Positions 9,959 to 13,023 of a stretch of DNA of 13,497 bases are shown here, in pieces. Below the pieces are notes generated by a model. The model did no database searches, was not told where the DNA came from, and worked only from the letters and a program-made list of their open reading frames with translations. The stretch is taken from NCBI GenBank assembly GCA_030613505.1, contig JAUWLW010000062.1, forward strand, positions 1-13,497, written 5' to 3'. Numbering within the stretch: position 1 is the stretch's first letter; every line of letters begins with the position of its first letter. The translations under genes were made by a program, and so were the position numbers. Source of the stretch: Candidatus Zixiibacteriota bacterium. Lineage in GTDB: Bacteria > RBG-13-66-14 > B26-G2 > WVWN01.

Positions 9959-10411
9959 ATGTACGACGATTTAGATTTTTCACGCGTGCTCCGCGAGATA
10001 CTGGCGCGACGGGGCTTGAGCGCCGGCGACCTCGCCAAGGCGACGGGTTTGTCGCGCCAGGCGATTTACCAAATATTAAACGGTAAAACGCGCACTCCCA
10101 AACGCTCCACGCTCGACAAAATGGCCGCGTTCCTGGACGTGCCGCCGGGCCAACTCCTCCGCGGCGAATTGCCCGAGGACACCCCCGAGTTCCTCCGACC
10201 GGACGAGGATATCCTCGCCCAGGTCCCGGACGTTATTGGACCGGAGCTCGAGGCCGTAATCGAGCGCGAAATGCCGGACCGTACGCCGCTGCTGCTGGAA
10301 GGCCCCTCTTCCAAACCGCGCCAGGACGTCCTGAAGATGAAGCTCTACCTCATCCTCAAAAAGAGGAAACTGAGCGCCCCGGAAAAAAGCGATCCGCTTA
10401 GCGAAAACTGA
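9959..10411 (+). CDS. XRE-family helix-turn-helix transcriptional regulator
   Basis: This 150-residue protein has a Cro/C1-type HTH at about residues 9-65: LREILARRGLSAGDLAKATG, then recognition helix LSRQAIYQILNGKTRTP, then the closing helix STLDKMAAFLDVPPGQLL. The C-terminal half (residues about 75-150) is acidic at first, then basic, and unrecognised; it may carry the dimer or protease-responsive part. It is followed after 35 bp by an ImmA/IrrE-type metalloprotease gene, the classic pairing in which the protease cleaves and inactivates the repressor (as ImmR-ImmA in ICEBs1 or DdrO-IrrE in Deinococcus). A palindrome in its leader suggests autorepression. The Shine-Dalgarno site is weak (GAAGGG, 12 bases before the ATG). 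Confidence 0.85.
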   Translation: MYDDLDFSRVLREILARRGLSAGDLAKATGLSRQAIYQILNGKTRTPKRSTLDKMAAFLDVPPGQLLRGELPEDTPEFLRPDEDILAQVPDVIGPELEAVIEREMPDRTPLLLEGPSSKPRQDVLKMKLYLILKKRKLSAPEKSDPLSEN

Positions 10412-10424
10412 CGCGTTCTGTCAG
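10408..10424. promoter_or_regulatory. Inverted repeat in front of the protease gene
   Basis: CTGAC (10408-10412), seven bases, GTCAG (10420-10424). It starts inside the regulator's stop codon, covers the place of the -35 element for the TATAAT at 10435, and shares the AAACTGAC half-site with the upstream operator. It may instead act as a weak hairpin after the regulator gene (GGCTTTT follows). Confidence 0.4.
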
Positions 10425-10434
10425 GGCTTTTGTA

Positions 10435-10440
10435 TATAAT
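10435..10440 (+). promoter_or_regulatory. TATAAT -10 box giving a leaderless start
   Basis: A perfect TATAAT lies six bases before the GTG at 10447, so transcription would begin at the start codon itself. No good -35 is seen (CGCGTT at 17 bp), so the promoter may be weak or activator-dependent. Confidence 0.55.
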
Positions 10441-10446
10441 GCTCCC

Positions 10447-10950
10447 GTGCAAAGGCCCGAGCTCGCAGCCACGGCGTTGTGGCGAGCCACTTGTCCGGAC
10501 GGGTGGCGCGTCGAGCCGATAAACCTGGGCGCGGTCGCCGCGCATCTGGGCGTCGACATCTTGACCTGGCAGCCCGACGACGAGAGACTTAACGGAGCGC
10601 TGATACGGAGCGCGAAGACGGTTTTCGTAAACGCCACCCTCGCGCGGCCGCGGATGCGCTTCGCGGCAGCTCACGAATTAGGCCACTACGTCCTCGGCCA
10701 CGAGGGCGACTTCTTCTGCCCCTTCAACCGGTACGCGACGCTGGAACGCGAGGCCAACCGCTTCGCCGCGGCGCTCTTGATGCCGACCGCCGTAGTGAAG
10801 ACGCTCTGGCTCAAATTGAGCGACCTGACGCCCGCGGCCAAATTGTCGGCGCTGACCGAACGGCTCGCGGTCTCGCGCCAGGCGCTCGGCTACCGCCTCC
10901 GCGCGGTGGGCATCGCCGGCGAAACGCCGGCCTCCCCACAGCGAGCTTAA
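10447..10950 (+). CDS. ImmA/IrrE-family zinc metallo-endopeptidase
   Basis: This 167-residue protein begins at GTG 10447. It has the zinc motif HELGH at residues 76-80 (within RFAAAHELGHYVLGH) and the downstream third-ligand region EREANRFAAALLMP (Glu102), exactly as in the ImmA/IrrE family. The N-terminal part (residues 20-70) carries the family's typical strand pair and a VFVNATLARPRMRF lead-in to the active helix. The C-terminal part (about 125-160) ends in a short helix-turn-helix-like segment (LTERLAVSRQALGYRLRAVG), common in these proteases for recognising their repressor. The probable substrate is the neighbouring XRE protein. There is no Shine-Dalgarno site, consistent with leaderless translation from the TATAAT six bases upstream. 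A terminator follows. Confidence 0.9.
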   Translation: MQRPELAATALWRATCPDGWRVEPINLGAVAAHLGVDILTWQPDDERLNGALIRSAKTVFVNATLARPRMRFAAAHELGHYVLGHEGDFFCPFNRYATLEREANRFAAALLMPTAVVKTLWLKLSDLTPAAKLSALTERLAVSRQALGYRLRAVGIAGETPASPQRA

Positions 10951-10979: not shown

Positions 10980-11009
10980 CCGCCCCGCGGCAGAAGCGGG
11001 GCGGTCGTA
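10980..11009. terminator. Terminator between the protease gene and tRNA-Leu, probably bidirectional
   Basis: A 9-bp perfect stem CCGCCCCGC (10980-10988) and GCGGGGCGG (10996-11004) with a 7-nt loop. On the plus strand TCGTATTTT follows; on the minus strand TAATCTTTT follows. It can end both the protease message and the tRNA transcript, which converge here. Confidence 0.75.
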
Positions 11010-11012
11010 TTT

Positions 11013-11097
11013 TGCCGGAGGCGGGAGTCGAACCCGCACGGAGCAAAGCTCCGAGGGATTTTGAGTCCCTTGCGTCTACCTGTTCCACCACTCCGGC
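11013..11097 (-). tRNA. tRNA-Leu (anticodon CAA)
   Basis: This 85-nt class II tRNA reads on the minus strand: acceptor GCCGGAG paired with CTCCGGC, D-arm GTGGAACAGGTAGACGC, anticodon stem AGGGA/TCCCT with loop CTCAAAA (anticodon CAA at 11063-11061, decoding TTG), long variable arm GGAGC-TTT-GCTCC, and T-arm GCGGG-TTCGACT-CCCGC. The discriminator is A, as expected for leucine; CCA is not encoded. It lies only 11 bp after the stop of the Nmad3-like gene, so its promoter must lie inside that gene's 3' end or further upstream. All stems are intact. Confidence 0.97.
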
Positions 11098-11108
11098 GCC
11101 CTATATTA

Positions 11109-11897
11109 TCAGTTAGTTACGCTACTGCCCTTCTGTTCCGATTTCCCTTTGTGTGAATTTTGTGTTAGTGTCCAACCGTTCGACCGTACTAGCTTAGGTT
11201 TCTTCTCATCAAACCAAATCAAGAACTTTTCAGGGTCGCATAACCACGGAGTAATACCGCTCCGCTGTATCCAACCATTTCTCACGTCGAGGCCTCCCCA
11301 CTTTATTAGTATATTAGGGTCAACGTAATAATTACTGCCACGCGGCCGGGGTTCGCCGATGGGTATCGCCTTTGTGAAGCGGCCGGATCCGTTCGGTTCG
11401 GCCCGTACGATTACGTTCTTGTCATTCTCGTTGAATTCAAAGCGCGTGTGAGCGTTTTTATCCCACTGCCCTTTTGGGATATCGCGTACATCCGAACCAG
11501 TAACTATTCCTTTAACCCAATAAAAACCGATAAGGGCATAGACGAGCGGCCGCTTTGTATCGATAGGTTCGAGGCTGGCGTAGAACGCTATAAAATCCCC
11601 CTCGATAAGTTGCCCAAGTCGTTCCCCCTTTGTTCTCCAATCCCCGTACGTGAGTTGCTCGAAATCTGGGTCGAGGTGAAGGGACTTACCTTTTACTTTC
11701 GCCGCGACGTTCGGGGGTAGTTGGACTTTAGTTTTCCCAAAAGCGAATTCCATGTCTTCATAACATGGCGGCGTGAAACCCTCCCGGGGTTTGGCTTCCG
11801 GATCTTCCAAAATCGGGATGTATGCGAATTCTCGACTAATAGGATCGTACAGTCCGTTCCAGCCGCCGGAGCTTAGGTCGATCCCTACCCTAACCAG
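11109..11897 (-). CDS. Nmad3-like (nucleotide-modification-associated) protein with non-canonical start
   Basis: The frame is open back to TGA 11916-11918. The first usual start, TTG 11808-11810, would cut off a conserved-looking N-terminus (VRVGIDLSSGGWNGLYDP..., then FAYIPI). The start is therefore placed at CTG 11895-11897, which overlaps the integrase stop (CTGGTTAG) and has GAAGGGA just upstream; a mutated start is also possible. The 262-residue product has HLDPDF at about 74-79, GDFIAFY at 100-106 and ALIGFYWV near 121, and a KFLIWFDEK end, which together resemble the Nmad3 family linked to DNA base-modification and phage-defence neighbourhoods. No catalytic reaction is known. The last ~20 residues (LTQNSHKGKS...) match the integrase tail and look foreign to the domain. 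The gene is visibly more AT-rich than the integrase. Family call moderate. Confidence 0.6.
   Translation of the reverse strand: MVRVGIDLSSGGWNGLYDPISREFAYIPILEDPEAKPREGFTPPCYEDMEFAFGKTKVQLPPNVAAKVKGKSLHLDPDFEQLTYGDWRTKGERLGQLIEGDFIAFYASLEPIDTKRPLVYALIGFYWVKGIVTGSDVRDIPKGQWDKNAHTRFEFNENDKNVIVRAEPNGSGRFTKAIPIGEPRPRGSNYYVDPNILIKWGGLDVRNGWIQRSGITPWLCDPEKFLIWFDEKKPKLVRSNGWTLTQNSHKGKSEQKGSSVTN
11138..11170. repeat. Direct repeat copy 1 (3' end of the Nmad3-like gene)
   Basis: This 33-bp segment matches 11928-11960 at 27 of 33 positions; the first 25 positions differ at only two. Both copies encode LTQNS-x-K-x-KS in frame near the end of their genes. The two starts are 790 bp apart, about the length of the Nmad3-like gene. 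Confidence 0.85.
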
Positions 11898-12978
11898 TAA
11901 TCCCTTCGCGGGTTTTCACCTTCCTCCCCGATTTCGCTTTGTATGAATTTTGCGTCAGCAACGCCACGACGTCGGCCAGGTACTCGGGCGCGAGGTGCGC
12001 GTACCTCATCGTCATCTGCGGCGTCCGATGGCCCAGCAGCTTCCCTATCGTCGACGTCGGAACCCCTTCCATCGCGAGCCACGACGCGAAAGTGTGGCGC
12101 AGGTCGTGGAACGTGAAGTCGTCGATCTTCGCGCGTTTACGCGCCGCCTCGAAGCCACTCTTCACCGAACGGTACGGCCGGTTGTAACGGCTCAAAAAAA
12201 CTTTCCCGTCCCGGCGCCCGAGCGAAGCGACGGTATTATACAACACGTCGTTCATCGGGACAACTCTTGTTTCGTTGTTCTTAGAATCGACGACGCGGAG
12301 CTGGCGCCGTTTCATGTCCACATGCCGCCACTCGAGCGCGAGGATCTCGCCGAGGCGCAAACCCGTGTGGAGGGCGACGACGACGATCGGCCGGAGTTCG
12401 TCCGAACACGATCCGATCAGCTGTGCCGCCTCATCGCGCGAGAGGTAGCGGACCCGCCCGGGCGGCTCCTTAAATTTCTTCACCCGCGCCGCCGGCGACA
12501 CCTCGAGGTAGTCCCACTCCACCGCAAGGTTCAGGGCGTGCTTCAGCGCCGCGAGCTCGCGGTTCACGGTCGCGGGCCCGAGTTTGCGGCGCCGGGTCGC
12601 CTTGAACGCCTCGACGCGTTCGCGCGTGACCGACGTTAGCGGGACGTCGCCGAAGAAGTCGAGGATATGGCGGACGAGGTAACGTTTCTTTTGGTACGTC
12701 GACGGGCGGTTATTCTGCTCGCAGTATGCAAGGTACTTCTCTAAGAACGTCCCAAGCTTAACGTTGCGGATGACGCGGACGCCGTGGGCGCGCTCGAGGG
12801 CGCGGCGGAACTTCTCCTTCGCGATCGCCTCGGCCTCGGCCTTTACCATCGTCCGCAAAGACGAGTCGAGCCGGATCCCTTTGACCCAGCCGAAGATCCA
12901 CCAGTAGCGGCCACGCTTTTTTATTCGGTAACCCGTCGCTGTTCTCCCTTTGACACTATGATTTACGACATAAACCAA
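11890..12978 (-). CDS. Tyrosine recombinase / phage-type integrase
   Basis: This 362-residue protein has three regions. The first is an N-terminal arm-binding domain (about residues 16-45, GYRIKKRGRYWWIFGWVKG). The second is a SAM-like core-binding domain (about 72-160, KLGTFLEKYLAYCEQ...). The third is the catalytic domain with all expected residues: Arg208 (TGLRLGE), Lys233, His291 and Arg294 (HDLRH), His317 (LLGHR) and Tyr326 (MRYAHL). It should catalyse site-specific strand exchange for an integrative element. The start TTG 12976-12978 is the only usable codon that keeps the whole arm domain; no clear Shine-Dalgarno site is seen. The same frame is open upstream to TAG 13024-13026. The stop overlaps the Nmad3-like start. 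The last 22 residues (LTQNSYKAKS...) are shared with that gene. tRNA-Leu lies about 800 bp downstream. Confidence 0.95.
   Translation of the reverse strand: MVYVVNHSVKGRTATGYRIKKRGRYWWIFGWVKGIRLDSSLRTMVKAEAEAIAKEKFRRALERAHGVRVIRNVKLGTFLEKYLAYCEQNNRPSTYQKKRYLVRHILDFFGDVPLTSVTRERVEAFKATRRRKLGPATVNRELAALKHALNLAVEWDYLEVSPAARVKKFKEPPGRVRYLSRDEAAQLIGSCSDELRPIVVVALHTGLRLGEILALEWRHVDMKRRQLRVVDSKNNETRVVPMNDVLYNTVASLGRRDGKVFLSRYNRPYRSVKSGFEAARKRAKIDDFTFHDLRHTFASWLAMEGVPTSTIGKLLGHRTPQMTMRYAHLAPEYLADVVALLTQNSYKAKSGRKVKTREGITG
11928..11960. repeat. Direct repeat copy 2 (3' end of the integrase gene)
   Basis: Partner of 11138-11170 (27/33 identical; six substitutions, no gaps). Four of the six differences are third-codon or conservative changes, which fits descent from one coding tail. 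Past the repeat the two proteins still align weakly (KTREGITG against KGSSVTN), so the duplicated unit may be longer. Confidence 0.85.
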
Positions 12979-13023
12979 TCTATAGTTATATCCACCGTCT
13001 AACGCGGGGCGGCGTCTTCCGAA

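Follow-up and report, generated by a model that had tools for sequence, protein, structure and literature searches.

A protein tail shared by an integrase and an Nmad3-like gene as putative arm-type site DNA of an element inserted in a tRNA-Leu 5' half

The locus and its genes

The window, by which we mean the whole stretch of DNA that was analysed, is the entire contig C83 (13,497 bases) of the source genome (G000). It contains a tRNA-Leu(CAA) gene, an Nmad3-like gene and a tyrosine integrase gene (int), laid out as follows:

11013..11097, reverse strand: tRNA-Leu(CAA), found by ARAGORN, the integration target; empty sites in the congeners G003 and G002 indicate that its 5' half and upstream DNA are element-derived
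11057..11099, reverse strand: att core at the window end of the element (tRNA nucleotides 1-41 and 2 further nt), with a 43/43 copy at G000:C95:1008-1050
11105..11110, reverse strand: GATAAT, picked out by eye, a candidate -10 box given by the element to the tRNA gene; native sites read TATATT there
11109..11915, reverse strand: Nmad3-like cargo gene, frame open to 11915, with a TTG ORF at 11109-11810; its last 20 codons traverse repeat copy B
11129..11168, reverse strand: repeat copy B, including the putative arm-type pair TAACACAAAAT / TCACACAAAGG at 11146-11167, 70 nt from the tRNA gene
11890..12978, reverse strand: tyrosine integrase (int), with a full catalytic set and a predicted N-terminal domain of three strands plus a helix
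11919..11958, reverse strand: repeat copy A, inside int at its 3' end, with the pair TGACGCAAAAT / TCATACAAAGC at 11936-11957, both CACA cores altered, about 860 nt from the tRNA gene

A sigma-70 promoter scan reported nothing at tRNA-Leu(CAA), the GATAAT candidate included. An XRE regulator gene followed by an M78 (IrrE-like) peptidase gene lies at 9959-10950, and these are neighbours of tRNA-Leu(CAA) in the congeners G001 and G003 as well.

The integrase scored 112 bits against PF00589 and, as in lambda-type integrases, its catalytic residues R208, K233, H291, R294, H317 and Y326 were invariant across 11 sequences; against the IntI-type model TIGR02249 it reached 60.5 bits, the cut-off being 265. 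A predicted N-terminal unit of three strands and a helix (E16-22, E25-32, E35-40 and H46-65) resembles an arm-binding domain, and the top fold match was DNA-bound lambda integrase, full-length Int aligning from residue 16 (Z 21.4) with an rmsd of 14.9 over 316 residues that we take to reflect a different arrangement of the domains. The same genome has a second relative of this integrase (L026, L158; contig C68), located 5' of a tRNA-Pro gene, with a tandem TTTGCC pair right after its stop codon.

The assignment of the integrase's neighbour as Nmad3-like, originally made from the sequence without database searches, held up, since the Nmad3 profile PF18754 scores 54.5 bits on the protein (cut-off 27). 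Upstream of the TTG listed at 11810, the reading frame stays open up to 11915 and abuts the int stop, and there is no ATG, GTG or TTG start before 11810; as homologues align from LVRVGID, upstream of that TTG, the likely start of the gene is next to the int stop codon, perhaps a CTG at 11897 or a position near it, which would make the gene overlap this stop. The two closest full-length homologues among the 386 genomes searched (L207, 39% identity, and L210, 42% identity) can be aligned as far as window residue 246, where L210 terminates and L207 continues for about 10 unrelated residues. The 20-residue extension TLTQNSHKGKSEQKGSSVTN is absent from both, and the tail is thus foreign to the Nmad3-like protein, as the sequence-only reading had suspected in calling for such an alignment. 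No relatives were found in viral contigs or phage records, the four plasmid matches were all weak, and defence-system models run on the integrase and the Nmad3-like protein matched neither.

Evidence for an element occupying the tRNA-Leu(CAA) 5' half

A search of the source genome identified an exact copy (43/43) of the 5' half of the tRNA-Leu gene plus 2 nt on contig C95 (1008-1050). In the congeners G003 and G002 this site is unoccupied; the tRNA gene is followed there by native sequence (...GGATAATATAACAGAGTTG...) that in the source genome is also found after the displaced half on C95. Moreover, the gene order on C83 (XRE, M78, tRNA) together with that on C95 (hsp20, Lon) is continuous in G003. 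Based on the empty sites and the common order of the flanking genes, C83 and C95 most likely hold the two borders of a single element inserted in the tRNA-Leu(CAA) 5' half, the link between the two contigs being one of synteny only, across an assembly gap that covers the interior of the element. With the core repeat, the empty sites and the synteny, the end seen in the window is the left end of an integrated element, and both the direct repeat and the empty sites are those of an element using a tRNA 5' half.

The shared tail and the tandem 11-nt pairs

The copies at 11129-11168 and 11919-11958 form a direct repeat that is 32/40 identical at a spacing of 790, and both are translated in the same frame, yielding LTQNS(Y/H)K(A/G)KS at the ends of the two proteins. 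The repeat of 27/33 described earlier under the two tails was confirmed as the best 33-mer match in 11001-13000, well above the values of at most 24 in 150 Markov-shuffled sequences; for 40-mers the best match was 32/40, and at most 27 in 150 such sequences.

Within copy B there are two tandem 11-nt motifs, the first and second members of the pair given above. A refined 18-mer covering this motif (TTTGTGTNAATTTTGTGT) had eight occurrences in the genus, spread over three of its four genomes and every one exact even with one mismatch permitted, and was not found elsewhere among 14 genomes of the phylum; its reversed control had one match among all 14 genomes and none in the genus. A chance AT-rich match had been considered, as a first scan with three mismatches gave control matches, and was rejected with the refined 18-mer, which gave only exact matches, with none by the control in the genus. 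The occurrences include copy B itself (pair B) and one on C95, 131 nt from the displaced tRNA half (pair C), so that on sequence grounds putative arm-type sites are present on both sides of the core. Pair B is intact, while in copy A the two CACA cores now read CGCA and TACA.

We then looked at a set of integrase relatives (80 from a search of genome contigs, plus those from whole-genome searches), taking 69 stretches from the end of int to a tRNA or tmRNA gene and requiring a self-match of at least 7 of 8 at lag 11, with stretches inside int as controls. Where the RNA gene faces int with its 5' end, 22 of 33 stretches, a group that includes the window's copies B and A themselves, had a lag-11 pair (controls, 0); where it does so with its 3' end, 25 of 36 did (controls, 2). 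Lags near 11 were close to background, save for a smaller excess at lag 12, and approximately one third of the related loci had no clear pair. In the window, copy B matches at 7/8 and copy A at only 5. In the relatives the pair mostly starts 65-95 nt from the RNA gene, often within the 3' end of int. Since many pairs lie inside the int reading frame, the C-terminal residues of the integrases vary with the pair, e.g., VWTLFGHQ is the translation of a TGGACACTATTTGGACACCAG pair.

Two related loci are close counterparts to the window. At one (G115), as in the window, int is separated by a cargo gene from a pair that adjoins a tRNA-Arg gene. At the other (L222), an independent case, the element is complete: it measures about 4.7 kb, its far end carries a 41/41 copy of the tRNA-Thr 5' half, and it has two pairs, the first 117 nt from this displaced half and the second within the tail of int. 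On C95 and in other elements the pair abuts a terminator, and due to this adjacency termination could account for part of its conservation. From the positions of the pairs, we infer that the DNA under the two tails represents a pair of arm-type sites for the integrase.

How the two genes may have come to end alike

Our preferred reading, to which we give a probability of about 0.86, is that the tail repeat is a pair of arm-type sites beside the att core of an element using a tRNA 5' half, and that this pair was duplicated when the Nmad3-like gene came between int and att; the likeness of the two gene ends would then come from each gene reading into its own copy of this site pair. Acting in the anticodon or immediately 3' of it, the element's tyrosine integrase would have joined it to the 5' half of tRNA-Leu(CAA) by recombination, such that the element now provides the 5' half and upstream region of the tRNA gene, the native 5' half and promoter having been displaced to the element's far end (contig C95). 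In the relatives this pair is often found at the 3' end of int, whose last codons then simply translate the sites. On the arrival of the cargo gene between int and att with duplication of the pair, the working pair B, which the integrase would bind and with which the element may still be mobile, would have been kept about 70 nt from the tRNA gene and read through by the cargo gene, leaving copy A in int as a decaying relic. What stands of the insertion proposed from the sequence alone is that the gene sits between the integrase and the attachment site and that the int tail was duplicated; its view that the repeat serves for crossover or cassette capture does not.

According to that view, the window holds a one-gene cassette at a recombination site in the 3' end of int, which would be excised by crossover between the tail repeats. 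The repeat does bracket exactly one gene, and the tail of this gene is foreign; however, the real ends of the element are marked by a separate, perfect 43-nt core repeat. The att core, formed by the tRNA-Leu 5' half, has another sequence, and as it lies elsewhere we reject excision at the tail repeat. Cassette capture likewise fits poorly with the position of the repeat, which is where related integrases have their tandem site pairs rather than their cores, and with the third pair near the other end of the element. When the tails of the integrase relatives and the genes that follow were compared, the tails differed, none was present on a following gene, and no series of exchangeable cargo genes emerged; in the source genome itself, the tail pattern occurs without mismatch only in copies A and B. 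We therefore consider a cassette very improbable. A selected signal at the protein level, e.g., a localisation or interaction tag common to both proteins, would account for a ten-residue tail in the identical frame, but strikes us as scarcely credible: the tails of the integrase relatives are wholly different and are translated from different DNA pairs, residues 339-362 of the integrase, which form its tail, are predicted to be disordered (pLDDT < 50), and the tail is absent from the Nmad3 homologues.

A further possibility concerns history within the preferred reading, namely that the int-Nmad3 junction arose from tandem integration of two related elements (one with Nmad3 and copy B, the other with int and copy A) and subsequent deletion of the att between them. 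Such accretion is well documented (PMC5704250), and elements do stand in tandem at this same site, as C95 carries a second gene ending in SLGRVKALFR, which has a motif of its own and a flanking repeat that has degraded; the Nmad3 frame, abutting the int stop with none of the usual starts before 11810, would also suit a junction of this kind. However, no tRNA half or other scar is left between copy A and the Nmad3-like gene, and the same observations follow from a simple insertion with duplication, so that we hold a tandem origin to be a tentative option, at somewhat under even odds.

Integrase-less elements at other tRNA-Leu genes

Displaced tRNA-Leu halves were found four times in the genus, once in the window element and in three further elements:

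G000:C18, L155:4512-5975: at tRNA-Leu(TAG), 1.4 kb, one NHL-repeat gene before the displaced 5' half; the flanking repeat (117 nt, 95% identical) includes the tRNA promoter region
G003:C43, L154:4376-9621: at tRNA-Leu(TAA), 5.2 kb, four consecutive NHL-repeat genes before the displaced 5' half
G001:C80: at tRNA-Leu(CAA), 2.4 kb

No integrase gene was found in these three elements, nor was there an integrase match at 1e-30 in the genomes G001 and G003; like CIMEs, they keep their att repeats without an integrase gene. Their direct repeats reach into the tRNA promoter region (83-95% identity over 93-123 nt), and the right ends of the elements can be aligned from the terminator through the pair. 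At its other sites in the genus, the motif comes after the terminators of genes encoding proteins with SLGRVKALFR, or a near variant of it, at the C-terminus. There are 25-43 such 3' ends per genome (G000, G001, G002 and G003; one is at 176-883 of the window), several of them belonging to NHL-repeat proteins, and only those beside tRNA-Leu genes have the motif, one contig (G003:C2) being too short to judge. SLGRVKALFR appears to be a genuine C-terminal tag carried by secreted proteins. The second element on C95 (L136:1008-2510), in tandem behind the displaced half, consists of one such gene, its motif and a degraded repeat of the tRNA gene plus promoter. In addition, on G000:C23 (L156:4883-6460) a gene with the common right end lies beside tRNA-Leu(TAA) with an intergenic direct repeat of about 58 nt and no displaced tRNA half; the counterpart of this repeated stretch was found only once in G001.

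We speculate that the window integrase also mobilises in trans minimal elements with the same right end (terminator plus arm-site pair) at several tRNA-Leu isoacceptors, some with a single NHL-repeat gene and a tRNA promoter that replaces the native one, although we regard this as rather unlikely. If true, it would be a cassette-like system that moves secreted-protein genes and depends on tRNA 5' halves. The integrase-less tRNA-Leu elements, among them single-gene ones whose movement is directly testable, are a more novel lead than the finding in the window.

Significance and comparison with known systems

The pairs suggest a simple sequence rule by which arm sites of a widespread integrase family could be found: two motifs in tandem at lag 11, typically some 65-95 nt away from the RNA gene. 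They would also explain odd protein tails as translated att DNA. Because these elements use the 5' half of the tRNA gene, they have to supply an essential gene with substitute upstream DNA. Mycobacteriophages have pairs of 11-bp arm-type sites on both sides of the attP core (PMC3203893), and lambda and the mycobacteriophages L5, Giles and CrimD resemble the window integrase and its putative sites in catalytic set, predicted arm-domain fold and a core flanked by 11-nt pairs. In contrast to lambda-type elements, the window element has one putative arm-site pair in the coding end of a cargo gene and a decayed copy in int.

Integration in the 5' part of tRNA genes is known and considerably less frequent than in the 3' part (Zhao and Williams 2002, as cited in PMC6563490). 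Such 5'-part elements share with the window element a reversed target orientation and restoration of the 5' half and upstream DNA by the element, and what differs here is an integrase family with a common arm-pair geometry across several phyla. CIMEs and tandem genomic islands, e.g., the integrase-less Dehalococcoides ssrA islands, are bounded by att and stand in tandem (PMC3146451, PMC5704250), and the integrase-less elements of the genus resemble them in their att repeats and tandem arrangement (PMC3146451); unlike these, the elements here are as small as 1.4 kb with one NHL-repeat gene and use three tRNA-Leu isoacceptors in one genus. The likeness to integron cassettes, which are also single genes moved by a tyrosine recombinase, is superficial, as the window integrase scores far below the integron-integrase cut-off and the ends of its element are tRNA halves.
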